A DNA stretch of 64,000 nt. Source: Lignipirellula cremea. GTDB taxonomy: Bacteria > Planctomycetota > Planctomycetia > Pirellulales > Pirellulaceae. Shown here piece after piece: positions 20,615-37,624 of the stretch. Under the pieces are notes generated by a model. That model did not search any database, was not told where the DNA came from, and saw nothing but the letters and a program-made list of their open reading frames with translations. The stretch is from assembly GCF_007751035.1 (NCBI RefSeq), contig NZ_CP036433.1:3391001-3455000 (forward strand), read 5' to 3'. The stretch's first letter is position 1; every line of letters starts with the position of its first letter. A program made the translations under genes and the position numbers.

Positions 20615-21190
20615 ATGAAATTTCTACTTCCCTTTCTGGCCGTCTGGTGCTGTGCACTGTCGGCCTGGGCCGGCGACTGGAACGCGGCCCCTTCGTACTT
20701 TACGCACAACCCGCAGACAGGCGAACGGGTCGACCAGTACGCCCCCGATCCGATTGCTGTCGGCGCCGTGCAGCCCGCCAACTATCAGAAGAGCGGCTAT
20801 CGCCAGTATCGCAGCAGCCTGCAGGTGGGCTCGGTGGCGGATAACATTCATGTGGTGGAAGAGTACGGCCGTCCCGTTCGCCCTTATGGCGAATGGCGTT
20901 TCCCGTACCGGCCTTACTCCGTGCCCTATGGCGCCTGGGGCCCGCAAGGATATGGCGGCGGCTTTGGCGGTTATGGCAACATCGGGTTTGGCGGCGGTTT
21001 CCCACGCCAGGCGTTCGAGCCTTACGGTTCCCGTCCGTTCAACGACCGCACCGGCGTGCAGCCGCCGTATTACGACGGCACCTACCCGCAGAACCGCATC
21101 CCGCCGCGATTGCCCTCCGGCGGCTTTGGCCACCAGGGTTTTGGCGGAAACGGTTTCGGAGGAAATGGCTTTGGCGGGAACGGCTTCTAG
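20615..21190 (+). CDS. Secreted Gly/Tyr/Pro-rich protein
   Basis: This 191-residue protein begins with a clear signal peptide (MKFLLPFLAVWCCALSAWAG, cleavage after AWA). The mature part is rich in Tyr, Pro and Gly. From about residue 105 it becomes low in complexity, with GGGFGGYGNIGFGGGF, and it ends in three GGNGF units. Such tails are common in surface or matrix proteins, but no function can be assigned. A GGAGG-like site is absent; the spacing to the lipoprotein gene is 188 bases. The TAG stop at 21188-21190 lies inside the CTAG that begins the second MITE, so the natural C-terminus may once have been different. Confidence 0.65.
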   Translation: MKFLLPFLAVWCCALSAWAGDWNAAPSYFTHNPQTGERVDQYAPDPIAVGAVQPANYQKSGYRQYRSSLQVGSVADNIHVVEEYGRPVRPYGEWRFPYRPYSVPYGAWGPQGYGGGFGGYGNIGFGGGFPRQAFEPYGSRPFNDRTGVQPPYYDGTYPQNRIPPRLPSGGFGHQGFGGNGFGGNGFGGNGF

Positions 21191-21267
21191 TGCTGCGTCA
21201 ATCTTCAATCTTAGAGTGAGCGATTTCGGCCGTGCTGCTGTGCTGCCAAAAAAACCGGGGGCTAGCG

Positions 21268-22800
21268 CCCAATGGCACTGTTTTTACCAAATCCGTTGCC
21301 TGGGGTGGTTTTTGGCATGAATTTTGCGCCGCATGTTTTGGCATGAAATTTGCGCCCCTTCCTGACTTCTTACTCATTGATAAGGAGTCTTGCGATGGCG
21401 GCCAAACAGAAACGTAAGCAGAAAGCACAGAAATCCGAGCAGGCGCGGGCGGCGGAGTTTGACGCCGTGTTTGCCCAGTTGGAAGAGATCGTGGATCTCC
21501 GCCAGGCCGATGAGTTGCAGCCCTCCCACGCCCAAACGATTTACACGTCTGGCGTCGTCCTGTGGCTGTTGGTCTTGCAGCGATTGCGCGGCGGTTGCTC
21601 GATGGCCGAGGCGGTCAAGGCCTTGATCGAGCAGTGCCCGGACATCGTGCCCGACAATAAACGCATCGAAGAAGCGACCCTCTCTTCCAGCACCGCGGCG
21701 TACTCCCGGGGCCGGAGCCGTTTGTCGCTGGAGACCGTCATGTGGCTCTGCAATGCCGTCTGGCGGTCGCTGGTCGACAACGCTCCGCCCACCTTCGGCG
21801 GGCGACGCGTGTTCGCGCTGGACGGCACGACGATCTCGCTGGGACCGGAATGGGAACTGTACGACGTCTTCCCGCCCGCTTCCAATCAGTACGGAGAGTC
21901 GGCCTGGCCGATGGCCTATCTGGTCGTGGCTCATGAGGTCGAAAGTGGAGCGGCGTTGCCCCCGGAAATCGGTGCGATGTACGGCGACCAGGCGGTCTCG
22001 GAAACCAGCCTGATCCACGATCATTTACAACGCATCCCGGCCGATTCGGTGATTCTGGTCGACACAGCTTACGGCATTACGCGTGTCGCCTACGAGTTCC
22101 ACACGGCCAATCAACGCTTCGTGGTGCGGATGAAGAAGGACCGCTTTCGCCGGCTGCAAAAGGACGCCGAGTTGATCGAACAAGGCGAGGACTGGAAAAC
22201 GTATCGAGGACAATGGACGCCCAGTCGCCGCGAGCTGCGCGACAATCCTCAATTGCCGGAGGACTTCTCGCTGCCGATTCGGCTGCACGTGTTCGAAAGC
22301 GTCCACGGCGAAACAATCTATCTGGCGACCGACCTGACCGACGAATTGGACGTCATCGCCGATTTGTATAGTCAGCGGTGGCGTGTGGAAACAGATCTCT
22401 CACAGATCAAGGTGACGCTCGACATCGAGAACATCCTCGCCAAGAGTCCTGAGATGTTCCGCAAAGAACTGATGGCGTCGATCGTGGCCTATAACCTGAC
22501 GATCCAGTTCCGCAAACAGGCGGCGGAACATGCCAACGTACCGCCGCGGCGGCTCAGCTTCACCGGCGTGTGGGACGTGTTCCGCATCTTCCTGCTCCAA
22601 AAAACATTCCCCGACGCCGGCGCCTGGCGCACGGCTTACGCACGAGCGCTCAAGTACGCAGCGCGAGAGAAATTGCCGAACCGCCCCGGCCGGAGCTACT
22701 CCCGCGAAAGCTACAAACGCCGCTCCAAATCCTCGCATTTTAAAAAAAGATCTCCACCCTGGAACCAACCCGAAAACGAGCCAAAGTGAGTGCCATTGGG
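21268..22800 (+). mobile_element. IS4-family insertion sequence, 1533 bp
   Basis: The IS has perfect 12-bp terminal inverted repeats, CCCAATGGCACT at 21268 and AGTGCCATTGGG at 22800. It is flanked by a 6-bp direct repeat CTAGCG (21262-21267 and 22801-22806). It carries one transposase gene with the IS4-family YREK signature. It landed in the centre of a MITE. Both ends and the gene are intact, so it may be active. Confidence 0.9.
21395..22789 (+). CDS. IS4-family transposase
   Basis: The start is the ATG at 21395, eight bases after an AAGGAG site; the in-frame ATG at 21350 has no such site. The 464-residue DDE transposase shows the first Asp in FALDGTTISL, the second in VILVDTAYGI, and the Glu within YSQRWRVETDLSQIK. 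The latter fits the Y-x2-R-x3-E-x6-K signature of the IS4 family. The C-terminus is basic (RSYSRESYKRRSKSSHFKKR). The enzyme cuts at the 12-bp ends of the surrounding IS. No frameshift or missing catalytic residue is seen. Confidence 0.92.
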   Translation: MAAKQKRKQKAQKSEQARAAEFDAVFAQLEEIVDLRQADELQPSHAQTIYTSGVVLWLLVLQRLRGGCSMAEAVKALIEQCPDIVPDNKRIEEATLSSSTAAYSRGRSRLSLETVMWLCNAVWRSLVDNAPPTFGGRRVFALDGTTISLGPEWELYDVFPPASNQYGESAWPMAYLVVAHEVESGAALPPEIGAMYGDQAVSETSLIHDHLQRIPADSVILVDTAYGITRVAYEFHTANQRFVVRMKKDRFRRLQKDAELIEQGEDWKTYRGQWTPSRRELRDNPQLPEDFSLPIRLHVFESVHGETIYLATDLTDELDVIADLYSQRWRVETDLSQIKVTLDIENILAKSPEMFRKELMASIVAYNLTIQFRKQAAEHANVPPRRLSFTGVWDVFRIFLLQKTFPDAGAWRTAYARALKYAAREKLPNRPGRSYSRESYKRRSKSSHFKKRSPPWNQPENEPK

Positions 22801-22977
22801 CTAGCGCCCGGCGGCTGATTTAGAGAAACCTGATTTTATGGTTTGACGCATCACTAGGAGGCCTGCACCGCGGCGTCTGGCACTGTTTACGGCGGGCCGG
22901 GTCGCGTTAGAATCGTGACATCGCTGGTCCTTTCGCCAGGGACGATGCTTGCTTCTACGAACCTGCGGAACTGCCTG

Positions 22978-24066
22978 ATGCGCGCCATTGCTGCTCGACC
23001 TGGATCCTCGGAACCGTATTTCGTCGACGCTCCCGAACCGCCGGAACCGGGCCCGGGCGAGGTGCTCTGCCGCACGCTCGAACTGGGCGTTTGCGGAACC
23101 GACCGGGAGATCCTGGCTTCGAAACAGCCCTGGACGCCGCCCGGCGAATCGCACCTGGTGCTGGGGCACGAATGCCTGGCCAGGGTGGAAGCCGTCGGCG
23201 ACGGAGTGACGCTGGAAGTCGGCAGTCTGGTGACCCCCGTCGTACGCCGGGCCAGGCCCTCAGCCGACCCGGGCATGCGGGTCGACATGCTGACTTTCGG
23301 CGACTACGTCGAACGCGGCATTGTGGAAGAGCACGGCTTCTCTCTGCCGCTCTGGCTCGACCGTCCTGAGCACCTGTTTCTGGTCGATCCCGGCCTGAAA
23401 CCGCTGGCCGTCTTCGCCGAACCGCTGAGCGTGGCTGAGAAAGCAGTCAACGAAGCGATCCGCCTGCAGACCGCTCGGCTGACGCCGGAAACCTGGAGCG
23501 ACCCGCCGCCCCGGGTGCTAGTGACCGGCATGGGGCCGATCGCATTCGCCGCCATTCTGGCCGCCCGGTGTCGCAACTGGCCGGTTGTCATCTACGGTCG
23601 CGACGCCGACGATTCGCCCCGGGCCCAGCTGGCCCAGGAACTGGGCGCCGAGTACCTGCCGGCCGATCGCGCGGCATTCGATCAGCATGATTCTTTCACA
23701 GGCGGATACGATCTGGTGCTGGAATGCACCGGGGCGGAAGAGGTGCTGCTGGCGGCGGCCCACGTGCTGAACGCTCGCGGCGTGATGGTCTGGCTGGGAG
23801 CGGATCGCGTCGGACGCAGCCGCTCCCTCAACCTTGCCAATGCGATGCGACGGGCCGTGGTCGGCAACCACCTTCACCTGGGTAGCGTGAACGCAGCTCC
23901 CCGCGACTTTGCGGACGCCCTGCAACACCTGGCCCAGATGCAAGCCAGCCATCCTCAGCCAATGGCGGCCCTCATCAGCGATCGCGCCCCGTTCCACGAC
24001 GCCCTGGCCCAGTACCAGAACCGGAATAAACAGGGCGTGAAAGCCATCGTCCAGTACGAAAAATAG
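22978..24066 (+). CDS. Zinc-type alcohol/glucose dehydrogenase
   Basis: The ATG at 22978 (MRAIAARPGSSEPYFVDAP) fits the start of medium-chain dehydrogenases; starts at 22945 and 22915 are in frame but add unrelated residues. The 362-residue protein has the catalytic-zinc region GVCGTDREIL and LGHECLARVE. It lacks the four-Cys structural zinc loop in the usual form and has a nucleotide-binding motif VTGMGPIAFAA. The pattern matches the archaeal-type glucose 1-dehydrogenase subgroup (oxidation of glucose to gluconolactone with NAD(P)). The glucose specificity is a family-based guess. It begins 121 bases after the second MITE, which may have displaced its original upstream region. Confidence 0.75.
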   Translation: MRAIAARPGSSEPYFVDAPEPPEPGPGEVLCRTLELGVCGTDREILASKQPWTPPGESHLVLGHECLARVEAVGDGVTLEVGSLVTPVVRRARPSADPGMRVDMLTFGDYVERGIVEEHGFSLPLWLDRPEHLFLVDPGLKPLAVFAEPLSVAEKAVNEAIRLQTARLTPETWSDPPPRVLVTGMGPIAFAAILAARCRNWPVVIYGRDADDSPRAQLAQELGAEYLPADRAAFDQHDSFTGGYDLVLECTGAEEVLLAAAHVLNARGVMVWLGADRVGRSRSLNLANAMRRAVVGNHLHLGSVNAAPRDFADALQHLAQMQASHPQPMAALISDRAPFHDALAQYQNRNKQGVKAIVQYEK

Positions 24067-24077
24067 CGTATCTGACG

Positions 24078-25199
24078 TTAATTATTCAGCAGCTGGTTGC
24101 GATCGCCGAGTCGCGTTTTCAGGCTGACCAGCTTCCGGTCCCGCCAGACGAGAATCTCGATCAGTTTATCGACCGGCGTCAAGCCGACCAGATTGACCAG
24201 GTGGTTATCGTCCTCGATGATTTCACCATCGTACTTCACAACGACGTCGGCGACTTTCAGACCCGTGCGTTCGGCCGGCGAGTTCGGCGTGATGCCCGAC
24301 AATCGGGCGCCCTGGTATCGCGGCAGCCCCATGGCGATGGCCTGCTGGGCGTTGAACTGCGAATCCAGATGCACGCCCAGGAAAGCACGCACCACGCGGC
24401 CGTTAGCGATCAACTGCTCGGCGACCACCCGGGCCATATTGATGGGGATGGCGAAACCGATCCCCTCGCTGCCGCCCGAGTTGCTGGCAATCGCCGTGTT
24501 GAGGCCGATCACCTCGCCGCGCAGGTTGAGCAGCGGACCCCCGCTGTTGCCCGGGTTGATGGAAGCATCGGTCTGCAGGAAGTCCTGGTAGCGAACCCCC
24601 TGCGGCCCCAGTTCCAGATCCCGGCGTCCTTTGGCGCTGATGATGCCGTAGGTGACCGAGTGACTCAAACCGAAAGGACTACCGACGGCGATCACAAAGT
24701 CGCCGATTTCCACATTGCGGCTGTCGCCCAGTCGGGCGGCGAACAGGTTTCCGGCGTTGATCGCCAGCACGGCGATATCGGTCTCGGGATCGTCCCACAC
24801 GCCAATCGGCTGGACCACGCGGCCATCGGACAGGGAGATGTCGATCTTGGCCAGGGGGGAGTCCTTCACCACATGCCGGTTGGTCAGCACATAGAACTTG
24901 CCGGCCACTTCCAGAATGACGCCGGAGCCGGCCTCTTCCACCGTTTTGCTTCCGCCGACGGCCGTTTTCTCGACCTTCTCGGCCTCGATATGGGCGACGT
25001 TCGGTCGCACCAGACGGACGACCTTTTTTAGCAGATTCGCCTGTTGTGCCCAGGCTTCGTATTCAGCCTCGACTTCGGCCTGGAGCCTGGCCCGCTGCTG
25101 GCTCGTCTCCGGCGGCGGAAGTTCCTGGCCTTGGGCCGAAACCGCCAGCAAGGCGATCGTACAAGAGATCGCAACAAAAAACGGCATGCAGGGGTTCAC
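24078..25199 (-). CDS. HtrA/DegP-type serine protease with one PDZ domain
   Basis: I choose the GTG at 25199 because GGAAGG lies seven bases upstream; the ATG at 25187 is 19 bases from it. The 373-residue protein has a signal peptide (CMPFFVAISCTIALLAVSA), a coiled-coil segment and a trypsin-like domain with the complete triad: His in LTNRHVV, Asp in PETDIAVLA and Ser in NPGNSGGPL. A single C-terminal PDZ domain follows from about 265 (FLGVHLDSQF). HtrA proteases degrade or refold misfolded periplasmic proteins. Convergent with the dehydrogenase gene (11 bases apart) and downstream of the DksA-like gene. Confidence 0.9.
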   Translation of the reverse strand: MNPCMPFFVAISCTIALLAVSAQGQELPPPETSQQRARLQAEVEAEYEAWAQQANLLKKVVRLVRPNVAHIEAEKVEKTAVGGSKTVEEAGSGVILEVAGKFYVLTNRHVVKDSPLAKIDISLSDGRVVQPIGVWDDPETDIAVLAINAGNLFAARLGDSRNVEIGDFVIAVGSPFGLSHSVTYGIISAKGRRDLELGPQGVRYQDFLQTDASINPGNSGGPLLNLRGEVIGLNTAIASNSGGSEGIGFAIPINMARVVAEQLIANGRVVRAFLGVHLDSQFNAQQAIAMGLPRYQGARLSGITPNSPAERTGLKVADVVVKYDGEIIEDDNHLVNLVGLTPVDKLIEILVWRDRKLVSLKTRLGDRNQLLNN

Positions 25200-25265
25200 A
25201 GCATTTCCTTCCGTGGAAGCGTGTGTTGGTGGAATCAAATTTTCTGAGGGTCGGCAATACCGCAG

Positions 25266-25329
25266 AACGGGCCGCACGCAGCGGCCCGTTCGTTCAGCGG
25301 AATCGGTTCACCCCGCAAGCCGGGGTGAA
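25266..25329 (-). terminator. Two perfect hairpins between DksA-like and HtrA genes
   Basis: AACGGGCCGC (25266-25275) pairs with GCGGCCCGTT (25281-25290). TTCACCCCG (25307-25315) pairs with CGGGGTGAA (25321-25329). Both stems are perfect with 5-base loops and lie just after the stop of the DksA-like gene. There is no T-run, so they may be Rho-linked or RNA-stability elements. Confidence 0.5.
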
Positions 25330-25337
25330 GGGATCAT

Positions 25338-25784
25338 TCAGGAGACATCGAGTTCGATGTCGGAAATTTTCAAATCGTTGTCGCTGGAAAGATCGACGAC
25401 GCGTCCCCAGTCGGCGGAAGAGGAACCGTGCGTTCCAAATTTCTCCGCCTCACGCTGGCACTGGATGCAAAGCGTGGCGTAGGGCACCGCCTGCAGGCGG
25501 GCCAGGGGGATATTGTTGGAGCAGCCTTCGCAGACTCCATATTCACCGCCGCGCATTCTTTCGAGGGCGGTTTCAATCTGGTTCAATTCGCGACTTTCCA
25601 CTTCGGCCAGCTGCGAGCTGATTTCGTCCTGGGCGGAGTCCAAAGCAAAGTCGACGACGTCGCCTGAAGTCTGCTCGCGCAGTTCTTTGAGCAAACTAAG
25701 GTCCCCGGTCAACGCTCTGCGCAGAGCGTCGCGCCGCTTCACAAGCACCTGATGCAGATTCAAAATTGCGTCTTTTCGGGCCAT
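25338..25784 (-). CDS. DksA/TraR-family zinc-finger protein
   Basis: The 148-residue protein has a coiled-coil N-terminal half (residues about 5-80) and a C4 zinc finger, CEGCSNNIP then CIQCQ, in the DksA/TraR family arrangement. DksA-type proteins reach into the secondary channel of RNA polymerase and, with ppGpp, tune rRNA and stress promoters. The acidic pair expected at the coiled-coil tip could be DFALDSAQDE. A Ser/Asp-rich tail of about 30 residues after the finger is unusual. It lies 138 bases upstream of the HtrA gene. Confidence 0.85.
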   Translation of the reverse strand: MARKDAILNLHQVLVKRRDALRRALTGDLSLLKELREQTSGDVVDFALDSAQDEISSQLAEVESRELNQIETALERMRGGEYGVCEGCSNNIPLARLQAVPYATLCIQCQREAEKFGTHGSSSADWGRVVDLSSDNDLKISDIELDVS

Positions 25785-26391
25785 TGTTTCGCCACCTATG
25801 CCTCGAGTTCGAGTAGATCGGAGGTGTGCCCCCGGGGCCGATCCGTCTCAACCGAAGTTGAAGAGCTTGATAAAGGTTAGTCTGTTCCGAGTGGGGGGGG
25901 GGGGGAGCCGCCGAAAGCGAGGGCCTGTCCCGGCAACCAAAATATAGTACGCATCCCGTCTAGTGCGGCCAGTTTTTTGCGCGGCTTTTCAGGGTTGACC
26001 CGGCCTCTGGAAAACAACACACAATCTGTTTCACAATAATGACTTGCGTTTACTCGAACAGGTCCGTACCAGGGCAAAGAACTCGCGGAGCGCTTTTCCG
26101 TATCGGACACCTTGCCCTCGATTCATGCCATCCGAGGGGGTGGTAGTTGACCGTACCCTGCCTTTCCGCACCGCAGGCGTCGGAGGCGGGGTGAATAATC
26201 GTAAGGTTTGGATATTTCGGAATAATCGGCAATTTTTGAACCACGATCAAGCCGATCTTGTTAAGGAACCCCGAAATTTCCATGCAGGATGAAAAACCGC
26301 TTAGATCTTGCCCCAGGTGGCAATTTCGCGTACTAGAAACCCCACCTGTGTCTGAATCGGAGTGTTGCCGTCCTGAAGAGTAGGATCGAAC
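25785..26391. other. Divergent intergenic region with a G13 tract
   Basis: These 607 bases separate the leftward DksA-like gene from the rightward giant FHA gene. The clearest feature is an uninterrupted run of 13 G at 25893-25905. A TTGACC at about 25997 is a possible -35 box without a good partner. No gene with a domain is visible, although several frames cross the region. Confidence 0.45.
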
Positions 26392-29300
26392 ATGGTAGGC
26401 CCAACCGAACCCCAAACGCCCCTGGGACTGCTAGGAGCCCCGGCCAGCGATCTGGTGCTGCGCGTCCGCGGCGCCCCGCATGATGGCCGGATCATTCGCC
26501 TGGCTTCCAACAAGTGCACGATCGGCGCTGCCGCCGATTGTACGCTCCGGGTGCGCGCCTCGGGGGTGGAGCCCGTCCATTGCCTGATTCTTCGCGGGGA
26601 AACGGGGATGGTGGTGCGGACCTGGTCCTCCTCCACGCGACTTAATGGCCAGCCCTTCACTGAAGCCCGTCTTTTCCCTGGCGACCGTCTGGCGATTGGG
26701 GCCGTATCTTTCGATGTGCTGGGTGAGAATTCGGGCCCTGAAAACCCCTTCCCCGATCTGGCGGAAGAGGGCAGCGAAGAAGCCGCCTCGGCGCTGGCCG
26801 TTTCACCTGCTGAAAACGACGCCCAACTGCTGCTGGCCCGCAAGGAAAGCCAGCGTCTGGTCCAGCAACTGACGCAGCAGCTACAGGCTTCGAAAACCCA
26901 GCTGCATGAGATCCAGCAAAAGGCAGCCGACAATGTCCGCGAAACATCGCGCATTGAGCAGCGTTTGACCGAACTTGAAGACGAACTGGCGCAGGAACGC
27001 TGCGACCGGCTCGATCTGGAATCCAGCAAGCGCGCCGCCGAACAAGACGCCGACGCCCTGCAGCGGGCCGCCGACGACTTGCGCGAACGGTTACGGTCGA
27101 CCCGTCGGGAGCTCGACCAGGAGCGGCAAAAGTGGTTCGCTGACCGGAAACGTCTTGATGACCAGCTCAACGAGCGGTCCCGGCAACTGCAACGCCATGT
27201 GGCGGCCAACCTCGCTGTCGATGAGGCCGCCCGCGATCGCGCCGAGCAGGATCGCCGCCAATGGGAAGATGAACGCGAACTCTACCGCCGACAGCTGGAA
27301 GAAGCCCAGCACAAGTCGGGCGACTACCCCGAGCTGCAGCAGCAACTGGAAACAGCCCTGTCGCAAGTGGAACGGTCCCGCCAGGAAGCGGCCGATCTGC
27401 GCCGTCGCGTGGCCGACTTCGACCAGCAACTGCGTCGGGTGGAAGTCGAACGCGACGCCCTGCTCAATCAACAGGCCGTGCGGGAAAGCGACTGGAAACA
27501 GCGGCTCGAAGAATTCGCCGCGAAGGTCCGTCAGTTCGACCTGGAAAGCCGGCAACAGGAACAGCAGTGGCAAAGCCGTCAGGCCGAACTCGACGAGCAG
27601 CAAGCCGCGCTGGAGGCCCAGCGGGCCCAGTGGAACGAACGCCAGGCCAGCGTCGAAAGCGAACTGGAAGCCCGACAACAGCAGCTTGAAGAGCGCCGCG
27701 CTGAGCTGGAGTCGGGTCATAACCAGCCGCTCGAAGAAGCCCTGGCTCGCCTGGAAGAAGAGCGGCAGGAGCTTCAGTCGCAAAAAAGCGACTGGGAAGA
27801 AGCCCAGAAACGGTACGAACAGCAGCTAGAGCAGCGGCAAGAACAACTGCAGCAGCGGGAGACCGCGCTTGCAGAGACCCTGGCCCGACGCGAAGCAGAT
27901 TCCACCCAGCAGGAACATGCGACCCGCGAGCAGCAGGAGCAGTTTGAACTTGCCCATCGCGAGAACTTCGCCGCGCTCGAGCAGGTTCGCCAGGATCTGA
28001 CGGCCGCGCGCTCAGAGCTGGAAACGCAAAAGCAGCGCTGGCTGCAGGATTGCCAGCGCACCGAGCAGGAACTGCAGCGACGTCGCGAACAGCTGGACGA
28101 GCGCCAGCAGTTCCTGACCGAGTCGTCGGAACAACAACTGAGCGAAGCGCAAGAGCACCTGCTCACCCAACAAAAAGAGCTGGACGCCCAGCAGTCCGCC
28201 TGGGAAAAACAGCAAAGCGAAGAAGAACGCCGCCTGCAGGACCAGCAGACGGCCTTCGCCGCGCAGCAGCGTCAACTAGCGCAGGAACAGCAAGCCCTGG
28301 CCGCTCGTCAATCAGAACTGGTTGCCCGCCAGACCGAACTCGACCAGCGCCAGGACGATCTGAATCAGCAGCAGCAAGAGCTCGTCCAGCGACAACAGGA
28401 TCTCGAACAGCATCAACAGGAGCTGCAGGAAGGCCAGCAGGCCCTCAGCCAGGACCGCGAAAACTTTAATTCGGATCGCGCAGCCGTCTCGCAGGATCGC
28501 GAGGGTTTCGCCGATCTGGAACAGCAGCTTGTCGATGGCCAAAAACTGCTGGCCGAACACCAGCAGGAACTCGACGCCCGCCGCCAGGCTCTGGAAGAAC
28601 AGACCCGGGATCTGGAAGCGCAGAACGAAGAGCTCGCCGCCAAAAGCCAGGCGCTTGCCGCCCGGCAAATCAAACTGACGGAACAGGAAACGGCCCTCCA
28701 GTCCGAACGGGACGCCTGGTCCGCCGAACGGGCGGAAGCAGAACGAGAGCTGGAAACCCGCCGCAAGCAGCTGGATCTGCAGGCCCAGGAAAGGGCCGAA
28801 GAGCAGCGTCGCTCGTGGGAAGAAGCGCTGGACCAGATCGAGCAGGAACGCTCCGCGTTCGCCCGCCAACGTGAACAATGGGAGCGGGAACAAACAGAAC
28901 GCGAACAGCAGTGGGCCGAGCGTGAGAACGCCCTCCTTGGCCAGCAGGAAGAGCTGGATGCGCGCTCCCAGTTGCTGCTGCAACAGGAAGAACAGGCCGT
29001 CCGGCAACAGGCGGAGCTGGAGCAGCTGCGCGCTGTCGCCGCCGAATCGGCTCAACCCGAGCATCTTCTCCAGCAGCAGGAGCTGCAGCAGCAAGAGCTC
29101 CAGTTGCAACAGGCCCAGCTGCAGGAACGACAGGAAGCCCAGGCGGCCGCCGCCAGCGCCGTCCAGGCCGAACTGGCCGCCCTGCGGGAACAACTGGAAA
29201 CAGACCTGCAGCAGTTCCACCGAGACCGGGAAGCCTGGGAGCAGGAGCAGCAGCAGTTTGAAGCGGAATGGCTCGAACGGCAGCAAGAGTTCAACACGCG

Positions 29301-31554
29301 CCAGGAAGCGTTAAAACAGGAAAGCGAGCAACGGGAACACACACAAGCCGAATTCGAAGGCCAGCGGCTGGAGCTGATCGCCCTGCAGCAAACGCTCGCC
29401 CAGGAACAGCAGCACTGGCATGCCCGGCGTAAAGACCTGGAAGCGCAGTGGAAGGATCGCGAGGAGGAACTGGAAGCCCGCCAGCAGCAGCAGGAACTGG
29501 CGGAAAACCAGCCCGCAGATCCAGCCGAAAACCTCGGCGAAATCCCTGGCGAACACCAATCGCACATCGAGGCCCAGCGAGCTGAAGTCGCTGCTGAAAA
29601 ACTGCGTCTGGAGCAGGAACGCGAAGAATGGGAAAACGAACAGCGAGAATTCGAACGTCAGTGGATGGAAAGGGAGACCGAATTTAACCGGCGTTTCGCC
29701 GAACTCGAGGCGGCCCACTCCGCACCGCAAGCCCATGGCGACGTCGCTCCCGCCTTGCTGGCTGATCGCCAGGCGGAAGTCGACGCGCTGAAATCCGATC
29801 TGGAGCAGCGACGCCTGCAGCTGGAAGCAGAGTACGAACAGCGTCTGCTTGATCTGCAGTTGCCGCCTGATTCCGAAAGCGAGGACCTGGCCGCCCTGCG
29901 GCGGGAACTGGAAGCGACCCGCCAGGAACTCCATCAGCAACGCGACGCCTGGGTGACGCAGCAGATGCGTTACGAAGAGGAGATTGCGCGCCGGGAAGAA
30001 GAACTGCAGGATCACCGCAGCCCGCAGGATATCCAGCAAAGCCAGCAGCTTGAACAGGAACGCGATCACCTGGAAAATGATCGACGAGAACTGGAAGCCC
30101 AGCGAGCCGAATGGGAAGCAAAACAGCTGCGTTACGAAAGCGAGTTCAGTCAGTACCGTCAGGAGATCGCCCGGCGACAGGCCGACATCGATGCCGAACG
30201 CAGCTGGCTGACCGGCAGCGGAGTCAAATTGCCCGACGGGATCTCCCCCATCGCGCCGCTTTCATCCCTCGCAGCAGAGCAACCATCGGCGCAGCCGCCG
30301 CTGCACCAGGAAACCTTCGACCAGCATCCTTCTGAAAATCCGCCATACGAATCGTCGCTGCCGGACGCCGAGGACTCCAGCGAACCGTCCTGGTCCGAGG
30401 AGACGCCGGTTTCTGTTTCGCCCGAGACGCCCGCGGAAGAGGACGAAGAGGAATTCCTTTACCAGCGTCGCGGCAAAGCCCAGGACCTGCCGAAAGACGA
30501 ACACGCGGCCGACCAGATGCCGGCGGAAAATCCGTCGTCGGAAGAAGCCCACTACGACGATTATCCGTCGGAAGAAGCCAGCCAGTACGATACCCCCGTA
30601 TCCTACGCCGAGGATCGTCTGCCGGCCGACAATCGCGAGGAATTCGCATCGCCTGAACCGGCGTACGACCCGCATGGCGATCAGGAATACGGCCCGCCGG
30701 AATCCGCAGAACACGACGATGCCTACGACGACGGCGAACCGCACGCAAGGGCGTACGGACTGGAACAGGCCGAAATCGAAGCAGAGGAGGAAGCAGAGGG
30801 AAAGGACGAGCAGGAGCAACTGGAGGCCGACCCGCTCCGTCCGGAACCGCCCGTGAGCGCGGCCGAGATCCTGGCGAAATGGAGCGGCGGCGCCTGGAAA
30901 CCCGAAGAGGTGGAAGAAGAGGAGGAAGAGCCCGTAGCGACGCCTGCACCGCGGCGCCTGCCGGAACCGCAGCAGAAAGCCCGGGCGCCGTTAGTTCCTG
31001 ACGAAGCGGAGCCAGAAGAGGACTCGATCGAAGACTATATGAGTCGGCTGCTGCAGCGTGTCCGCGGCGAAGCGCCTGCCGCCCAGCCACAGGCGCCAAT
31101 GCGACCGGTTGAGAAGCGGCCCGAACCCATCAAATACGACGCATCGTCGGAGGCCATTATCCCTCCGCCGCCGCAGGATCGCGTGAAACCTGAGGACTAC
31201 AAGCCACGCAGCCAGGCTCCCGAAGGCACCTCCAATCTGGCGGCGATGCGCGCCCTGGCGAACCAGTCGGCCCGTAGCGCCATCACCCATAGCGATCGCA
31301 AGATGGGCGTCGGCGCTTCGCTGGGGAAAGGAATCGTCGGCGTGCTTTCGCTGGTGACCAGCGTGGGCCTGTTCGCGGTGGCGCAGTCAACGCTGGACAT
31401 GATCTTCTGGGGCGGCCTCGCCTGCGTCGGCGTCGGCGTTGTATTTTGCCTTGGCGCTTACCAGGAGCTCCATGCGGCCCGTGCAGCCGCCGAAGGGACC
31501 ATCAGCAAGCCCAAGGTGAAAGCGCCGGAAACCCCTCCGCCCAGCGAAGAGTAG
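26392..31554 (+). CDS. Giant FHA / coiled-coil / membrane protein (1720 aa)
   Basis: The N-terminus (residues about 20-115) is an FHA-like domain: LRVRGAPHDGRIIRLASNKC, then CTIGAAADCTLRV and SSTRLNGQPFTEARLFPGDR. The usual SRxH core is weak, so phosphothreonine binding is uncertain. Residues about 140-1270 are one very long Gln/Glu/Arg-rich coiled coil with few breaks. An acidic, Pro-rich linker follows to about 1600. Two hydrophobic segments near the C-terminus (GIVGVLSLVTSVGLFAVA and MIFWGGLACVGVGVVFCLGA) anchor it in a membrane. The design suggests a long tether or scaffold linking signalling to the membrane. No homologous function is known to me. It stands alone and converges with rho. 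Confidence 0.8.
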   Translation: MVGPTEPQTPLGLLGAPASDLVLRVRGAPHDGRIIRLASNKCTIGAAADCTLRVRASGVEPVHCLILRGETGMVVRTWSSSTRLNGQPFTEARLFPGDRLAIGAVSFDVLGENSGPENPFPDLAEEGSEEAASALAVSPAENDAQLLLARKESQRLVQQLTQQLQASKTQLHEIQQKAADNVRETSRIEQRLTELEDELAQERCDRLDLESSKRAAEQDADALQRAADDLRERLRSTRRELDQERQKWFADRKRLDDQLNERSRQLQRHVAANLAVDEAARDRAEQDRRQWEDERELYRRQLEEAQHKSGDYPELQQQLETALSQVERSRQEAADLRRRVADFDQQLRRVEVERDALLNQQAVRESDWKQRLEEFAAKVRQFDLESRQQEQQWQSRQAELDEQQAALEAQRAQWNERQASVESELEARQQQLEERRAELESGHNQPLEEALARLEEERQELQSQKSDWEEAQKRYEQQLEQRQEQLQQRETALAETLARREADSTQQEHATREQQEQFELAHRENFAALEQVRQDLTAARSELETQKQRWLQDCQRTEQELQRRREQLDERQQFLTESSEQQLSEAQEHLLTQQKELDAQQSAWEKQQSEEERRLQDQQTAFAAQQRQLAQEQQALAARQSELVARQTELDQRQDDLNQQQQELVQRQQDLEQHQQELQEGQQALSQDRENFNSDRAAVSQDREGFADLEQQLVDGQKLLAEHQQELDARRQALEEQTRDLEAQNEELAAKSQALAARQIKLTEQETALQSERDAWSAERAEAERELETRRKQLDLQAQERAEEQRRSWEEALDQIEQERSAFARQREQWEREQTEREQQWAERENALLGQQEELDARSQLLLQQEEQAVRQQAELEQLRAVAAESAQPEHLLQQQELQQQELQLQQAQLQERQEAQAAAASAVQAELAALREQLETDLQQFHRDREAWEQEQQQFEAEWLERQQEFNTRQEALKQESEQREHTQAEFEGQRLELIALQQTLAQEQQHWHARRKDLEAQWKDREEELEARQQQQELAENQPADPAENLGEIPGEHQSHIEAQRAEVAAEKLRLEQEREEWENEQREFERQWMERETEFNRRFAELEAAHSAPQAHGDVAPALLADRQAEVDALKSDLEQRRLQLEAEYEQRLLDLQLPPDSESEDLAALRRELEATRQELHQQRDAWVTQQMRYEEEIARREEELQDHRSPQDIQQSQQLEQERDHLENDRRELEAQRAEWEAKQLRYESEFSQYRQEIARRQADIDAERSWLTGSGVKLPDGISPIAPLSSLAAEQPSAQPPLHQETFDQHPSENPPYESSLPDAEDSSEPSWSEETPVSVSPETPAEEDEEEFLYQRRGKAQDLPKDEHAADQMPAENPSSEEAHYDDYPSEEASQYDTPVSYAEDRLPADNREEFASPEPAYDPHGDQEYGPPESAEHDDAYDDGEPHARAYGLEQAEIEAEEEAEGKDEQEQLEADPLRPEPPVSAAEILAKWSGGAWKPEEVEEEEEEPVATPAPRRLPEPQQKARAPLVPDEAEPEEDSIEDYMSRLLQRVRGEAPAAQPQAPMRPVEKRPEPIKYDASSEAIIPPPPQDRVKPEDYKPRSQAPEGTSNLAAMRALANQSARSAITHSDRKMGVGASLGKGIVGVLSLVTSVGLFAVAQSTLDMIFWGGLACVGVGVVFCLGAYQELHAARAAAEGTISKPKVKAPETPPPSEE

Positions 31555-31608
31555 TCGCTTGACAACGCAGCGACAACAACCGGGGAAAAAGAACACCCGG
31601 CAAAGACA

Positions 31609-31666
31609 GCCGGCCGGCTAAAGGCCGGCCAGGCGGACAAAGAGACGCGGGCTCCAGCGAGCCCGC
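31609..31666. terminator. Two hairpins between converging genes
   Basis: GCCGGCC (31609-31615) pairs with GGCCGGC (31623-31629). GCGGGCT (31647-31653) pairs with AGCCCGC (31660-31666). They lie between the ends of the giant FHA gene and rho and probably block read-through in either direction. Confidence 0.45.
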
Positions 31667-31682
31667 GCTGCGACAGGGCGCC

Positions 31683-33185
31683 TTACTTGGCGTTCATGCT
31701 CATCAGGAACTCGGCGTTGGTTTTCGCCTTTTCCAGTCGCGTGACCAGCAGTTCCATCGCGTCGGGCCCGTTCATATCATTGAGCACGCGCCGCATGACA
31801 CAGGTCAAGCGATGTTCTTCCGGATCCATCAGCATCTCTTCGCGGCGGGTGCCGCTGCGGTTGATATCAATCGCCGGATAGATGCGACGGTCGACCAGCT
31901 TCCGGTCCAGCACGATTTCCAGGTTGCCGGTGCCTTTGAACTCTTCAAAAATCACGTCATCCATTTTGCTGCCGGTGTCGATCAGCGCGGTCGCAATAAT
32001 GGTGAGCGAACCGCCTTCTTCGGTCTTGCGGGCGGAGCCAAAGAACGACTTGGGCCGCTGCAAAGCGTTGGCGTCGAGCCCGCCGGAAAGGATCTTGCCG
32101 GACTGCGGGCACTCCGAGTTCCAGGCGCGGGCCAGGCGAGTGATGGAGTCCAGGAAAATGACGACATCGATCCCGCACTCGACCATCCGTTTCGCTTTTT
32201 CGATGACCATCTGCGACACCTGAACATGGCGCGACGACGGTTCATCAAAGGTGGAGCTGACGACTTCACAGTGCGGACCGCGAACCTGCCGCTCCATGTC
32301 GGTGACTTCTTCCGGGCGTTCGTCGATCAACAGCATGATCACGTACGCTTCGGGATAGTTGGCCAGCACGGCCTTGGCCATCCGCTGCATCAGAATGGTT
32401 TTGCCGGCGCGCGGCGGGCTGACAATCAACCCTCGCTGGCCGAAACCAATCGGCGTTACCAGATCGACCACGCGGGTGGAAACATCCTCCGGATCGTGTT
32501 CCATGACAATCCGCGCATCGGGGTGAAGCGGCGTAAGCTCGTCGAACGGCACCCGCTGCGCCATAACGTTCGGGTCCTGGTAATTGATCGCCTCGACCCG
32601 CAGCAACGCGAAGTAACGTTCGTTTTCTTTCGGCGGGCGAATCTGGCCCGAAACGGTTGATCCGGTCCGCAAACCAAAACGCCGGATCTGGCTGGGAGAA
32701 ACGTAGATGTCGTCGGGGCAAGACAGATAGTGGTATTCCGGGCTGCGCAAAAAGCCGAAGCCGTCGGGCAGGATCTCCAGCGTGCCCTCGCCGTACATCA
32801 GCCCGTTCAGCTTGACCCGCTCTTTCAGGATGTTGAAGATCAACTCCTGCCGTTTCATGCTATCCGCATCTTCAACGTTCTGCCGGCGGGCTTCTTCGAT
32901 GAGCTCGGACATCGACATTGCCTGCAGTTTGACAATATGCGTTTCCCCGTCGCCGGCGACAACCGCGTCGCCGTTGGTCCCGGGCTTGGGAACGCCGCGG
33001 TCGGATTCATCAGCGATTTCTTCCGCCAGCGAGAGCGGTTCTTCGTCGAACGGATCGACACTCTCGCCATTGCCATTGTGCGCATATCCGTCGCTGTTCG
33101 CACGCATCGAAGGCCGCGTCAAAGGGCCGTCGCTGCGGCCACGTTTAAAGTTGTCCCGTGAGGACGCGCCGCGGGGTTTCGTCAT
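31683..33185 (-). CDS. rho: Transcription termination factor Rho
   Basis: This 500-residue protein carries all Rho landmarks: the N-terminal RNA-binding OB domain ([20 protein letters not shown]), the Walker A loop [14 protein letters not shown], Walker [16 protein letters not shown] and the Q-loop/R-loop region around [19 protein letters not shown]. The first 85 residues are an extra basic and acidic extension not found in E. coli Rho, as in several high-GC phyla. Rho is a hexameric RNA helicase that ends transcription. The start [16 protein letters not shown] is the first in frame; a later start would remove only the extension. A 457-base leader lies upstream. Confidence 0.97.
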
Positions 33186-33642
33186 GATGGAATATCTCCC
33201 CGAAGAGGAAATCCTGGGTACGGCGCATGAACAGCGCCAAAGGCGGGTGTTGGCAAAATGGGGTCAGGGTCGCTGCCCAAGGCAGTACTCTGAAAGGGAA
33301 ACAAAGTGATGCGGCCAACATTCCATTGACCGGAATCGTTCGGCAATCCGACAGCAATGCGGCGGCTGTCGGCTACATATTGGTTATCGGGGCTACGATC
33401 AAAAAAGGGAAGCGGTCTGTACAACAATTCTACTCGGGAGAACACCATTCCCAGAGGCCCCCTGGCCGCGGTTGGCGTCCCGGCGCCGGGTGCTTGTCGG
33501 ACTTCTCCCCAGGTAAACATCCGGCGCCCGGCAAGTGGATGAAGCGAAGTCCATCGGCAGTCCTGGCCGACCTGCCTGTCGCGGGCGACAGTCTGCCGAT
33601 TACTGGGAACCGGCGATCGTGAATGGGGGGGAAGAATTGGTT
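33186..33642. other. Long leader region upstream of rho
   Basis: These 457 bases lie between the end of coaE and the start of rho, both on the minus strand. In many bacteria rho is autoregulated in its leader; the length here would allow that, but I see no specific element. Frames crossing the region lack domains. Confidence 0.4.
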
Positions 33643-34287
33643 TCATGGCTGATGAGGAGAAGGGGAAGGCGCCACATGCCGACGCCAAAAGTCAATGACT
33701 TGCTGCTGGGTGTGCTGTTCGGACCCGCCGTTATCGATTACATAGTCGGCCCGTTCACGTTTTGTACCCGTGGATTCCTGCGTCAATTCGCGGCGGGAAA
33801 ATTCTTCCGCCGTCCACCCTCGTTGCAAAGCGCGAGCCAAGCGCACATTGGGCGGGGCGTCCACAAATACAAGGTAGTCGCACAGGCGATCCCAGCCAGC
33901 CTTCAGCATGACCGGAGCGTCGAGAACCAAAGCCGCCGGGGCTTCCCCGTTTGCCTGGTCCGCCAGCTGATCGATCTGCTGCTGCAGCCGTTCTCCGATG
34001 CGGGGGTGGGTTGTCTGTTCCAGAAAAGTAAGTTCGTCGGCGCCCTGGGGAGCAAACACAATAGCGGCGACCGCTTTCCGGTCGACCGTGCCATCGTCGT
34101 TAAATACCCGATCGCCCCAGCGGCGACGTAATATGTTTTGTATGGTTGGTTCGGCGAGCGTCTGGTGACCAGCCCGATCGGCGTCGAGCACCACGGCTCC
34201 TTGTTCGGCAAACCGCTGCGACACATAACTTTTGCCGCTGGCGATGCCGCCGAGTACGCCGATGACCAGGGGTTTCGAAGTCGCCAT
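33643..34287 (-). CDS. coaE: Dephospho-CoA kinase
   Basis: The 214-residue protein opens MATSKPLVIGVLGGIASGKS with the P-loop GGIASGKS, followed by VVLDADRAGH (substrate Asp), the CoA-domain segment THPRIGERLQ and the lid region with LARALQRGWTAEEFSRR. It phosphorylates the 3'-hydroxyl of dephospho-CoA, the last step of coenzyme A synthesis. Its length is normal. It is downstream of polA on the same strand; in other bacteria the polA-coaE-rho order also occurs, which supports the assignment. Confidence 0.93.
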   Translation of the reverse strand: MATSKPLVIGVLGGIASGKSYVSQRFAEQGAVVLDADRAGHQTLAEPTIQNILRRRWGDRVFNDDGTVDRKAVAAIVFAPQGADELTFLEQTTHPRIGERLQQQIDQLADQANGEAPAALVLDAPVMLKAGWDRLCDYLVFVDAPPNVRLARALQRGWTAEEFSRRELTQESTGTKRERADYVIDNGGSEQHTQQQVIDFWRRHVAPSPSPHQP

Positions 34288-34777
34288 CGCCGGTGGGGTG
34301 GTTGGGTTTCCAAAGCTCGTTCGAAGGAGCCCGTTGATCTCTTGCGGCCGGAAATTCGATTACCGTCGTCAGTTCCTGGTCGCTCTACTTCCCGAGGGAG
34401 TATTTCCATTGGGTCTGCGAGCAAAGGCGACCTCAAGGCGTTCGATCCTTTCGGATCAGTTCAAGCACAGGATCGAAGTCGACAGAATTACTCCAGCAAC
34501 AACGTTCAGGCAATCAGGGATTTATCTCGAAGGGAATGGGAAAGGGGTGGGCAGCAGGGATCAACCGGGTGAGTCAGGATGGGAGTCATGCAGGTGAGAA
34601 CTCCAGCGTAGCATGGATTTTTTCAAAGGTCTACGCCTTATGGAGTTGTTCTATCGTTTCCTGGGTAAACGCTCCAGGCAAGGGGTTTAAGCCATTTTTG
34701 GGCAAAAAGCCTCGCATCAAATACCTCGTGGGTGAGGCTCCCCCCTCGCAGCCGATCGGCCAACAGGAAAGTGGGGT
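34288..34777. other. Intergenic region between polA and coaE
   Basis: Apart from a terminator at 34704-34739 and a small GATCC/GGATC hairpin near 34443-34456, I see nothing in these 490 bases. Short frames on the plus strand lack domains. Confidence 0.4.
34704..34739 (-). terminator. Rho-independent terminator of polA
   Basis: On the minus strand AGCCTC and GAGGCT form a stem across a 20-base loop and are followed by TTTTT. It lies about 40 bases after the polA stop codon. Confidence 0.5.
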
Positions 34778-37624
34778 TCAAGGAAGCCAAGGTTCGCAGG
34801 CGGACCAGTTCGCTCCCGTTTTAATGTCGACACAAAGCGCTGTTCGCAATTCGCCGACGCTTGTCATTTCCGTGCGGACCATTTCGCACAGCGAGGCAAT
34901 TTCTTCAGGGGGAGCCTCGAAGACAAGTTCATCGTGGATCTGCAGCAACATCCGTGCCTGCATCCCGCTCTCCTTGAGGCGGCGATATACCTGAATCATA
35001 GCTAGTTTGATGAGATCGGCCGCCGATCCTTGAATGACCGTGTTGATCGCAATGCGTTCAGGGAAAGTGCGATTCCGTGCGTTTCGCTGGTTCGCAGCTC
35101 GAATCCCTTCCACCAAACGTCGGCGACCGAGGATGGTTGTAACATACCCCTTTTTGCGGGCGTCGGCCAGAACTTTTTCCAGAAACTCCTCAACACCCGG
35201 ATAACGGGCAAAATAGGCGTCGATAAAATCCGCAGCCAGCCCTTTATCGATTCCCAGCGACTTGGCCAGGCCGAACGCCGTTTGCCCATAAATGATGCCG
35301 AAGTTGATCGCTTTGGCGGCGCGTCGCATGTCGCTTGTGACTTCGTCCGGCGGCGTCTCGTACACCTCGGCAGCGACCCGGGTGTGGATGTCTTCCGCAT
35401 TGGCGAACGCCTCGAGCATGGCGGCGTCGCCGGAAAAGTGGGCCAGCACGCGCAGTTCAATTTGCGAATAGTCGGCCGCCACCAGGCTCCAGCCCGGCGT
35501 GCCCGGTATAAACGCCGAGCGGATCTCCCGGCCCTCTTCGGTGCGGACCGGAATGTTCTGCAGGTTGGGGTCTTTGGACGACAGGCGCCCCGTGGCCGCC
35601 ACATCCTGCATGAACGAAGTATGCACGCGGCCCGTCTCGGGATGCACCAGCAACGGCAACGCATCGACGTACGTACTCTTGAGCTTGGCGGATTGCCGAT
35701 AGGCGATCACCTGGGCCGGCAACGGGTGCTGAATGGCCAGTTGCTGCAGCGTATCGACATCGGTGCTGGGTCCCGTTTTGGTCTTTTTCAGGACCGGCAG
35801 CCCCAGCTCCTGGAACAGCAATTCGCCCAGCTGCTTGGGCGAGTCGATGTTGAACTTGCGCCCCGCCATTTCGTAGATCTCTTTTTCCAGCTCCAGCAGC
35901 CGCTTCCCGTGCTTTTTACTCAGTTCGCCGAGCAGATCCACATCAACCCGGATGCCGTTAAACTCCAGTTCCGCCAGCACCGTGATCAGCGGGATTTCCA
36001 GGTCGTCGTATAGAGAAGCCAGATCGTCGGCCGCCAGTTCACTATGCAACAGCGGGAACAACCGCAACGGCACGTCGGCGTCCTGCGAGGCGTACGGCGT
36101 GATCAGCTCCACCGGCACCTCGTTCATCTTTTTCTGTTTCTTCCCTGTGCCGATCAGCTCGCTGATTTTCGTCGTTTTGTAGTTCAACCGCCGCATCGCC
36201 AGGTCGTCGAGATTATGGTTCCGCTGCCCGGCGTCTAACAGGTAATCGGCCACCATGGTGTCGAACGCCACCCCGCGCAGCTCCACGCCGACGTTGCGGA
36301 GCACGATCATCTCATACTTGAGGTTCTGCCCGATCTTCGCCACCTGGTCGTTCTCAAAGAACGGACGCAGAATCTCCAGCGCCCCCTCCGGATCCAGTTG
36401 CGGATCGCCCTGCGGCGCCCGGACCGGCGCGTAATACGCCTGGCCCGGTTTCCAGGCGAACGAGTAGCCGACAATCTCGGCCCACCGCGGCATGGGGGAA
36501 GTCGTTTCCGTATCGATCGCGACATGCTTCTGCTGCTGCATTTCCTGCACCAGCGACTGCAGCTGCTCCAGGCTGGTCACCGTTTGATAGTCGGTCGTCC
36601 ATTCGACTGTCGGTGGTTCCACCGTGGTGGCGAAGTTCAACGCGCCGATCCGTTCGCCCAGGCGACGAAAGCCGTGGGTCTGGCACAGGTCCAGCGCCTG
36701 CTTCCGGTCGAAAGGACGAATGCGGCATGCTTCCCAGTCGATCTCGATCGGCGCATTCCGGTCCAGTTCCACCAGACGACGGCTCATCTCGGCCGCCTGG
36801 CGGCCGTTCATCAGGTTCTCCCGCCGTTTGGCGCCGGAGACTTCGCTGGCATGGTCCAGCACGCCGTCAAGCGTGTCGTACTTCTCCAGCAGCTCCTTGG
36901 CGATCTTCGGGCCGATCAACGCAATCCCGGGAACATTGTCAACCGAATCGCCGACCAGCGCCTGGAAGTCGACGACCTGGTCCGGCCGCACACCCCAGTC
37001 CTTGAGCAGCGCATCGGCGTCGTAGAACTGATTCTTCCGGATGTTGTAGATCTTCACCCGATCACTGATCAGTTGCCGGCAATCCTTGTCGCTGGAAACC
37101 ACCACGCACGTACCGCCCAGCTTTTCTGTCCGGTCGGCGATCGTCGCCAGCAGGTCGTCGGCCTCGTACCGCGGCAGATCCAGAATCGCCACATCCATCG
37201 CCATCAGCAGCTTGCGGATCTCGCCAATCTGCGGCCGCAAGTCGTCGGGCATCGGATCCCGGGTCCCTTTGTATTCCGGGTAAAACTCGTGGCGAAACGT
37301 GTCGTCGGAATGGTCGAATGCACAGATCAAAAAGTCGGGCTTGTGGTTCTCCAGCAGGTCCAGCACGTCCCGGGTAAAGCCGTTGACCGCGCCCACCGGT
37401 TGCCCGGAAGGGCTGCTCATTGGCGGCAAGGCGTGGAACACCTGGTAAATCAGCGAGTGCGAATCGATGACATAAACAGTACGGCCCTCAAGCGACGTCA
37501 CTTGCCCCTGGGCGTCGACCGGCAAAGGCGCCTGCTCCCGCTCGGCTGCCGGTTCGGCGGCTTCTGGCGGCTGAGGCTTCTCGAATTCTTCAAACCCAGC
37601 TAAGCGACCTTGGGAGTCGGCCAT
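34778..37624 (-). CDS. polA: DNA polymerase I
   Basis: The start is the ATG at 37624 (MADSQGRLAGFEEFEK). The 948-residue enzyme has all three domains. The 5'-nuclease domain lies at about 50-340 (VYVIDSHSLIYQVFHALP, GVLDHASEV). The 3'-5' exonuclease lies at about 375-570 and looks active, since KHVAIDTETTSPMP keeps the DxE metal ligands. The polymerase lies at about 600-948, with VAADYSQIELRVLAHFS (motif A), RRAAKAINFGIIYG (motif B) and LLQIHDELVFEAP (motif C). It fills gaps and removes RNA primers in replication and repair. The first 45 residues, ahead of the nuclease, are an acidic extension without known role. Confidence 0.97.
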   Translation of the reverse strand: MADSQGRLAGFEEFEKPQPPEAAEPAAEREQAPLPVDAQGQVTSLEGRTVYVIDSHSLIYQVFHALPPMSSPSGQPVGAVNGFTRDVLDLLENHKPDFLICAFDHSDDTFRHEFYPEYKGTRDPMPDDLRPQIGEIRKLLMAMDVAILDLPRYEADDLLATIADRTEKLGGTCVVVSSDKDCRQLISDRVKIYNIRKNQFYDADALLKDWGVRPDQVVDFQALVGDSVDNVPGIALIGPKIAKELLEKYDTLDGVLDHASEVSGAKRRENLMNGRQAAEMSRRLVELDRNAPIEIDWEACRIRPFDRKQALDLCQTHGFRRLGERIGALNFATTVEPPTVEWTTDYQTVTSLEQLQSLVQEMQQQKHVAIDTETTSPMPRWAEIVGYSFAWKPGQAYYAPVRAPQGDPQLDPEGALEILRPFFENDQVAKIGQNLKYEMIVLRNVGVELRGVAFDTMVADYLLDAGQRNHNLDDLAMRRLNYKTTKISELIGTGKKQKKMNEVPVELITPYASQDADVPLRLFPLLHSELAADDLASLYDDLEIPLITVLAELEFNGIRVDVDLLGELSKKHGKRLLELEKEIYEMAGRKFNIDSPKQLGELLFQELGLPVLKKTKTGPSTDVDTLQQLAIQHPLPAQVIAYRQSAKLKSTYVDALPLLVHPETGRVHTSFMQDVAATGRLSSKDPNLQNIPVRTEEGREIRSAFIPGTPGWSLVAADYSQIELRVLAHFSGDAAMLEAFANAEDIHTRVAAEVYETPPDEVTSDMRRAAKAINFGIIYGQTAFGLAKSLGIDKGLAADFIDAYFARYPGVEEFLEKVLADARKKGYVTTILGRRRLVEGIRAANQRNARNRTFPERIAINTVIQGSAADLIKLAMIQVYRRLKESGMQARMLLQIHDELVFEAPPEEIASLCEMVRTEMTSVGELRTALCVDIKTGANWSACEPWLP

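Follow-up and report, generated by a model that had tools for sequence, protein, structure and literature searches.

The pocket with which FHA domains usually bind phosphothreonine is formed by the Arg of a GR turn, the Ser of an SxxH motif, a His and an Asn, of which the Arg and the Ser contact the phosphothreonine. GarA and OdhI are small soluble regulators in which this pocket is intact. YscD and PrgH carry a degenerate FHA-like cytoplasmic domain, followed by a single transmembrane segment and then a periplasmic ring domain. In eukaryotes, the yeast proteins Far9 and Far10 are presumably similar in architecture to SLMAP. SLMAP is described as having an N-terminal FHA domain, a body of mostly coiled coil and a C-terminal membrane anchor, and its authors raise the possibility of a role in tethering either proteins or two membrane systems (PMC2712456). 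It is also reported to bind autophosphorylated MST2 (PMC5663475).

Here, we describe a gene of Lignipirellula cremea whose product, a member of an unnamed family common to two planctomycete groups, is predicted to be a long, rod-like protein anchored in the inner membrane. The window that we analyzed is a stretch of 64,000 nucleotides (NZ_CP036433.1, positions 3,391,001 to 3,455,000 of the forward strand).

A long reading frame with a head, a rod and a membrane hairpin

The reading frame starts with ATG at position 3417392 of the genome, which consists of one contig of 9.57 Mb, and runs without an internal stop. Its features, in window coordinates, are as follows.

26392..31554, + strand: whole reading frame, 1720 aa (reading frame; homologues in relatives)
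26476..26715, + strand: FHA-fold head, residues 29-108, with a degenerate phosphothreonine pocket (Pfam, alignment, AlphaFold2, Foldseek)
26878..30279, + strand: Gln/Glu-rich heptad coil, residues 163-1296, weaker and with prolines at about 1041-1211 (heptad periodicity tests)
30232..31023, + strand: acidic, proline-rich linker, residues 1281-1544, probably disordered (sequence, periodicity tests)
31024..31059, + strand: SIxxYMxxLLxR motif (YM motif), residues 1545-1556, a short predicted helix (alignments, model)
31204..31284, + strand: PRSxAPExxxxLxAMRELANxSARxAI motif, residues 1605-1631, at the start of a long helix into TM1 (alignments, model)
31330..31386, + strand: membrane helix 1 (TM1), residues 1647-1665 (hydropathy, model, charge count)
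31399..31455, + strand: membrane helix 2 (TM2), residues 1670-1688 (hydropathy, model, charge count)
31456..31551, + strand: C-terminal tail, residues 1689-1720, probably cytoplasmic (sequence, charge count)

An earlier, sequence-only reading had proposed this design of 1720 residues with an FHA domain, a Gln-rich coil and a two-helix membrane part, and Pfam, AlphaFold2, the heptad tests and hydropathy bore it out. Pfam covers only the head, and NCBIfam matches only the coil, far below cut-off.

Distribution of the family

With the C-terminal segment of the window protein alone as the query, matches were found in 32 of 60 relatives, the own genome counted. Twenty of these 32 genomes were fetched at length, and 15 loci from a family labelled f21 and five more loci from the own order were added later. 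We take f21 to be Planctomycetaceae, its genome G558 being probably Planctopirus limnophila. A 20-row profile matched 130 of 196 genomes of the order (own genome counted), 125 of the 130 with one match, and 17 of 294 genomes in a phylum sample. A profile built from both groups matched 113 of 248 genomes in a class sample and 38 of 392 across the phylum; 35 of the latter belong to the own order or f21, and three weak matches (E 3e-4 to 1e-3) lie elsewhere. Strong phylum-wide matches were confined to the own order (Pirellulales) and f21. The profile counts, which likewise include the own genome, reflect 11-23 candidates scored per genome, so that the 66 of 196 order genomes without a match (at most 23 candidates each) represent misses and should not be equated with absence.

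Counts of motifs, FHA domains and synteny exclude L059, whose contig begins beside the gene, and those of FHA domains and motifs also exclude the second copies L096 and L098. Alignments A1 and A2 contain the window protein and 19 homologues (without L059), and A4 is a 30-row selection. A5 omits L043, L048, L055 and L088; A6 omits L059, L088, L095, L096 and L098, and A7 the same loci and L054.

A further set of 61 named loci includes Rhodopirellula baltica (L140), R. europaea, R. maiorica, Stieleria, Rubripirellula, Roseimaritima and Bythopirellula, and Planctopirus limnophila probably has a homologue, a frame of 1169 aa that ends near position 1,671,620 of the chromosome. The R. baltica frame has 1510 residues; the R. 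baltica FHA gene RB1789, described with 243 aa (PMC2754498), is not this homologue. The sequence-only reading had named homologues of known function as what would count against it; the data searched contained many homologues, none of them characterized. The published literature searched, including PMC10632474, PMC2754498 and PMC10936438, contained no description of an FHA/coil/hairpin family in the parts of the text consulted, nor was an FHA/hairpin gene mentioned in the consulted main text of the P. limnophila essentiality study (PMC10632474).

The distribution bears on the possibility that the protein is a scaffold for cell division, budding or polarity in a planctomycete lineage without FtsZ. 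A single match per genome in nearly all positive genomes of the order (125/130) and the restriction to two groups of one class would suit such a role, and both groups are known for budding and for lacking FtsZ. However, the family is not universal within the order, and families f111-f114 of the same class gave no matches or weak ones (three, in f111 and f112, E 2e-5 to 4e-4 with the two-group profile). If f111-f114 are Gemmataceae and Isosphaeraceae, as we guess, and these bud too, the distribution of the family does not follow budding. We consider a division or budding scaffold unlikely.

The FHA-fold head and its pocket

The head was matched best by the Pfam family Yop-YscD_cpl (PF16697; residues 29-108, E 1.6e-9, 38.3 bits against a cut-off of 33.2) and also by FHA (residues 42-103, E 3.7e-5, above the curated cut-off). 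From a 34-row alignment, AlphaFold2 predicted an FHA-like beta-sandwich with high confidence (pLDDT 90.0, pTM 0.81). A Foldseek search with this model returned 105 PDB chains at E ≤ 0.001, and the 50 listed were FHA or FHA-containing entries. The FHA domains of GarA, OdhI and Rv0020c were the best fold matches, followed closely by Ki-67, YscD and Chlamydia CT664.

Pfam scans of the window protein and 19 homologues found Yop-YscD_cpl in 18 and FHA in 13 (E ≤ 0.01). An iterated profile seeded with the window head (E ≤ 1) detected an FHA head in the window protein and in all 37 homologues, L059, L096 and L098 having been excluded in advance. L055 showed a partial FHA domain by profile and none by Pfam, and the Pfam scan of L098, L190, L195 and L196 gave no match.

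In the window protein, A46 replaces the pocket Arg and E60 replaces the Ser; H63 and N85 are kept. This confirmed the earlier remark that canonical SRxH residues were missing. Across the aligned heads, the His (35 of 38) and the Asn (37 of 37) are widely kept, whereas the Arg is present in 3 of 37 heads (L062, L084, L097) and the SxxH Ser in a single one of 38 (L085); L043 and L055 are poorly aligned in the 38-head alignment. As a control, among the 23 FHA matches of the genome, the eight with the best scores all have both Arg and Ser (8/8). Judged from these residues, the head is an FHA fold minus two of the usual phosphothreonine contacts. Elsewhere in the genome, two more FHA-like proteins (L041, L042) have GS in place of GR, and a second long FHA frame of 1481 aa lies at 7920452; it was not among the complete ORFs listed for the 8-kb stretch there and so may run off its end.

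The protein had earlier been proposed to connect phospho-signalling to internal membranes; the predicted hairpin would suit internal and cytoplasmic membranes equally. In this scheme, the head would read Thr phosphorylation by Hanks-type kinases and recruit phosphorylated clients to the membrane, in line with the confidently predicted FHA fold, the retained His and Asn, and a genome with 23 FHA-domain matches. However, the Arg and Ser that contact phosphothreonine are absent in nearly all homologues examined while the genome's eight best FHA domains keep both, which leaves the link to phospho-signalling unsupported. It was dropped as the leading reading after the pocket-residue counts, and we regard a phospho-dependent tether as decidedly unlikely.

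The coiled-coil rod

Residues 141-1380 are rich in Gln (fraction 0.177) and Glu (0.175). When heptad periodicity was tested in 84-residue segments, those from 163-246 through 961-1044 were reached by 0-5 of 200 shuffles, except for 499-582 (19 of 200), and the same held for 1171-1254 and 1213-1296. Four segments starting at 1003-1129, which contain prolines, were weaker (5-34 of 200 shuffles). A cruder first test, with 98-residue segments, periods of 3.3-3.9 only and Ala scored as hydrophobic, reached 5 of 100 or better only for segments starting at 150, 248, 297, 444 and 640, plus one at 1473 outside the coil. The shuffle tests thus show that the coiled coil of about 1100 residues postulated earlier was roughly right; the accompanying length of 150 nm stands as an upper bound only, given the proline breaks.

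In 37 homologues, 308 to 1614 residues (median 880) separate the end of the FHA domain from the YM motif, a roughly fivefold range, so rod length is not conserved. The DNA repeats detected were short and imperfect.

The coil also raises the question of an SMC-like chromosome protein, as it is matched by NCBIfam SMC_prok_B at 3.5e-5. This match scored 21.7 bits against a cut-off of 567 and was limited to the coil of a protein that has an FHA head and a membrane hairpin. Pfam found no ATPase head, which excludes membership of the SMC family. We therefore treat the match as coil spill-over, and an SMC-like identity is barely credible.

The C-terminal module and membrane hairpin

The C-terminal module of the window protein consists, in order, of SIxxYMxxLLxR, the AMRELANxSARxAI helix and the hairpin. 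The YM motif and RELAN are separated by 58-109 residues in 37 homologues, and the R, A, N and A of the AMRELANxSARxAI helix do not vary in any of the 30 rows, which come from both groups. A loose YM pattern matched 34 of the 37 homologues; the motif was placed by hand in the other three. Within the own genome, the YM motif has one significant copy (E 1.2e-10; the next at E 1.13), ruling out a docking motif common to other proteins of the genome. Several f21 homologues (among L084-L098) show, by eye, an extra LRxxLAxxFGM-like motif within the acidic linker, ahead of the YM motif.

The predicted module (overall pLDDT 78.9, pTM 0.54) contains three helices, a short one at 1546-1557, a long one at 1613-1663 that passes through TM1, and a further one at 1670-1704. 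Comparison with the PDB gave no sequence match at E ≤ 0.1 and no fold match at E ≤ 0.001, and Pfam gave no match up to E 1 for the window's own C-terminal segment. In the C-terminal parts of the other proteins, Pfam matches were scattered, the commonest being DUF2207_C (5 of 36, best E 7.7e-4).

Two hydrophobic segments were found in the window protein (1647-1665 and 1670-1688), and a hydropathy average of 30 sequences likewise had two peaks. Across 30 sequences, Lys and Arg numbered 4.1 per sequence before TM1, 0.5 in the loop and 2.5 after TM2, a charge bias that most likely places both hairpin ends in the cytoplasm. Both segments reached a mean hydropathy of 1.6 in 15 of 39 sequences, 1.4 in 28 of 39 and 1.2 in 35 of 39, indicating that many homologues have a weak second membrane segment.

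Cadherin proteins with the same module

Sixteen stretches were fetched from genomes with second or odd copies. Four f21 proteins from these stretches (L191, L193, L197, L199), and L096 from the earlier set, start with cadherin domains that Pfam matched at E 5.4e-10 to 5.3e-49. A membrane span follows, its first residue lying between 363 and 545, and after a further region come the juxtamembrane helix and hairpin. All five proteins matched the two-group module profile at E 9.4e-6 to 2.0e-13. The YM motif was clear in L191, L193 and L199 and not clear in L096 and L197; three of the five proteins (L096, L191, L193) also had a flagged hydrophobic segment at the N-terminus. These proteins share the juxtamembrane helix and hairpin, and in three cases a clear YM motif, with the FHA protein; where the latter has its FHA domain and long coil, they have cadherin domains and one more membrane span. 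Genomes G485, G615 and G651 have both forms (the FHA domain of G615 falling below the Pfam cut-off), and in G645 and G621 the cadherin form alone was found. Because the stretches were chosen for being unusual, the examples give no frequency.

The position of the module after the cadherin and membrane part agrees with a cytoplasmic side for the module. The FHA-rod and cadherin forms might even join one complex through a common partner and so link the cell outside to a cytoplasmic scaffold; we offer this as a speculation that is rather improbable. If true, the complex would be a bacterial counterpart of adhesion-to-cytoskeleton coupling.

Neighboring genes and the intergenic region

The region upstream of the FHA gene contains the following features.

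24078..25277, - strand: Do/HtrA serine protease with PDZ, behind the dksA-like gene (NCBIfam 1.8e-94, below curated cut-off; conserved neighbor)
25338..25784, - strand: divergent DksA/TraR-family gene, 148 aa, zinc-finger protein (Pfam 5.1e-12; conserved neighbor)
25943..25952, no strand assigned: intergenic element TATAGTACGC, lying 158 bp from the start of dksA (recurrence among loci)
26221..26232, + strand: intergenic element AATAATCGGCAA, lying about 170 bp before the FHA gene (recurrence among loci)

An all-against-all comparison of ORFs from the window and 20 own-order loci found the divergent small ORF in 20 of 21 (L059 being cut), followed by the protease ORF in 18 of 21. In the 24 usable own-order loci, tblastn placed the dksA-like gene upstream of the ORF start, at a distance of 249-993 bp in 23 and of 2.8 kb in one (L048). 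With the window counted, the dksA-like neighbor was present in 25 of 25 own-order loci and HtrA in 22 of 25 (21 of 24 without the window). The named loci partly overlap the first own-order set (several common records); 18 of the 61 had no ORF by pattern and 8 had too little upstream DNA. Among the 35 usable ones, 29 had the dksA-like gene, and L107, L110, L116, L128, L132 and L147 did not. Near the f21 homologues, tblastn found neither the dksA-like nor the HtrA gene (0 of 15 loci), and the only clusters present in at least 6 of the 15 loci were the gene itself and a repeated-ORF cluster (6 loci). The Rho and PolA genes downstream in the window are not conserved neighbors (1 of 40 and 0 of 40 loci, respectively). 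In R. baltica, none of the first six start codons of the neighbor frame gives the 121 aa of RB11260, a 'dnaK suppressor'. The window also holds a DDE transposase ORF (21350-22789, +; Pfam DDE_Tnp_1, 2.8e-13) a few kb from the protease gene, and a CHASE-domain histidine kinase (38533-40488, +) beyond polA.

The intergenic region (25785-26391) has two elements that reappear in many of its homologues: TATAGTACGC near dksA and RATAATCGGCAA ahead of the FHA gene. Among 22 delimited dksA/FHA-gene intergenic regions, window included, TATAGTACGC was found in 14 with at most one mismatch, and GGATAATCGGCAA in 10 of 22 with at most three; three more loci could not be delimited. Exact 8-mers were shared by up to 10 of 24 intergenic regions; ten mononucleotide shuffles, a lenient control, gave at most 7. 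A longer form of the RATAATCGGCAA element has one mismatch-free copy in the genome, and Rfam at the gathering threshold found nothing in window positions 20000-40000. For one order only, the dksA-htrA linkage hints that the FHA gene may be regulated jointly with envelope or stringent stress. Since 6 of the 35 usable named loci and all 15 f21 loci lack the dksA linkage, a stress role is not general.

These neighbors also weigh on a membrane-ring or secretion-like machine related to YscD/PrgH, an idea suggested by Yop-YscD_cpl as the best Pfam match, found in 18 of 20 proteins scanned, and by the presence of the YscD and PscD cytoplasmic domains in the PDB hits to the head model. Against it, Foldseek puts GarA, OdhI and Rv0020c above YscD, and the protein ends in a hairpin and a tail of 32 residues, too little for a periplasmic ring domain. 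The two constant neighbors that could be assigned are dksA-like and htrA genes rather than secretion genes, and no type III secretion gene was found among the seven neighboring window proteins with a Pfam match. We find such a machine highly unlikely.

Discussion

The elongated membrane tether proposed earlier is supported by the fold, the heptads, the hairpin and a middle that drifts in length between conserved ends. Together with the degenerate head and the conserved juxtamembrane helix, the conserved ends and drifting middle fit a membrane-anchored cytoplasmic scaffold. We consider it somewhat better than an even chance that the protein is a cytoplasm-facing membrane-hairpin scaffold or tether, in which the module binds a conserved partner, the coil serves as a spacer and the head acts as a phospho-independent adaptor. 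The hairpin would anchor the scaffold in the membrane, with the rest facing the cytoplasm. The C-terminal module, comprising the two motifs, the juxtamembrane helix and the hairpin, may be the functional core, responsible for membrane placement and for binding one conserved partner. The long coil would be a length-tolerant spacer and oligomerization rod, and the FHA head may bind a protein without phosphate, holding this putative client tens of nm, and at most about 150 nm, from the membrane. Expression of the FHA gene may be co-regulated with the DksA/HtrA genes. Against this reading, three homologues keep the FHA Arg, 66 of 196 order genomes have no match, and the second membrane segment is often weak.

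Planctomycetes have an unusual cell organization and few named cell-biology proteins. The family would be a membrane scaffold that two planctomycete groups have kept widely and usually as a single copy. The change from phospho-reader to pseudo-FHA and the head swap for cadherins offer a handle on the function of the C-terminal module. With homologues in R. baltica and probably P. limnophila, and a transposon essentiality map published for the latter (PMC10632474), the role of the family is directly testable.

Compared with known systems, the FHA domains of GarA/OdhI and Rv0020c are the closest solved folds by Foldseek and are also among the profile matches of the head, behind Ki-67. Like YscD/PrgH (PF16697), the window protein is a membrane protein with an FHA-like cytoplasmic N-terminal domain; it differs in having a hairpin instead of one span, a coil of about 1100 residues and a tail too short for a periplasmic ring domain. 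The sequence-only reading knew of no described protein of this design. That view did not hold, since eukaryotic SLMAP, as described, has its FHA domain, coil and C-terminal membrane anchor in the same order, a likeness of architecture (PMC2712456). SLMAP differs in its single tail anchor, whereas the window protein has a hairpin, a degenerate FHA domain and C-terminal motifs of its own. SLMAP may thus be regarded as the best architectural analogue, without family membership, and the same would apply to YscD, which shares the FHA-like head.
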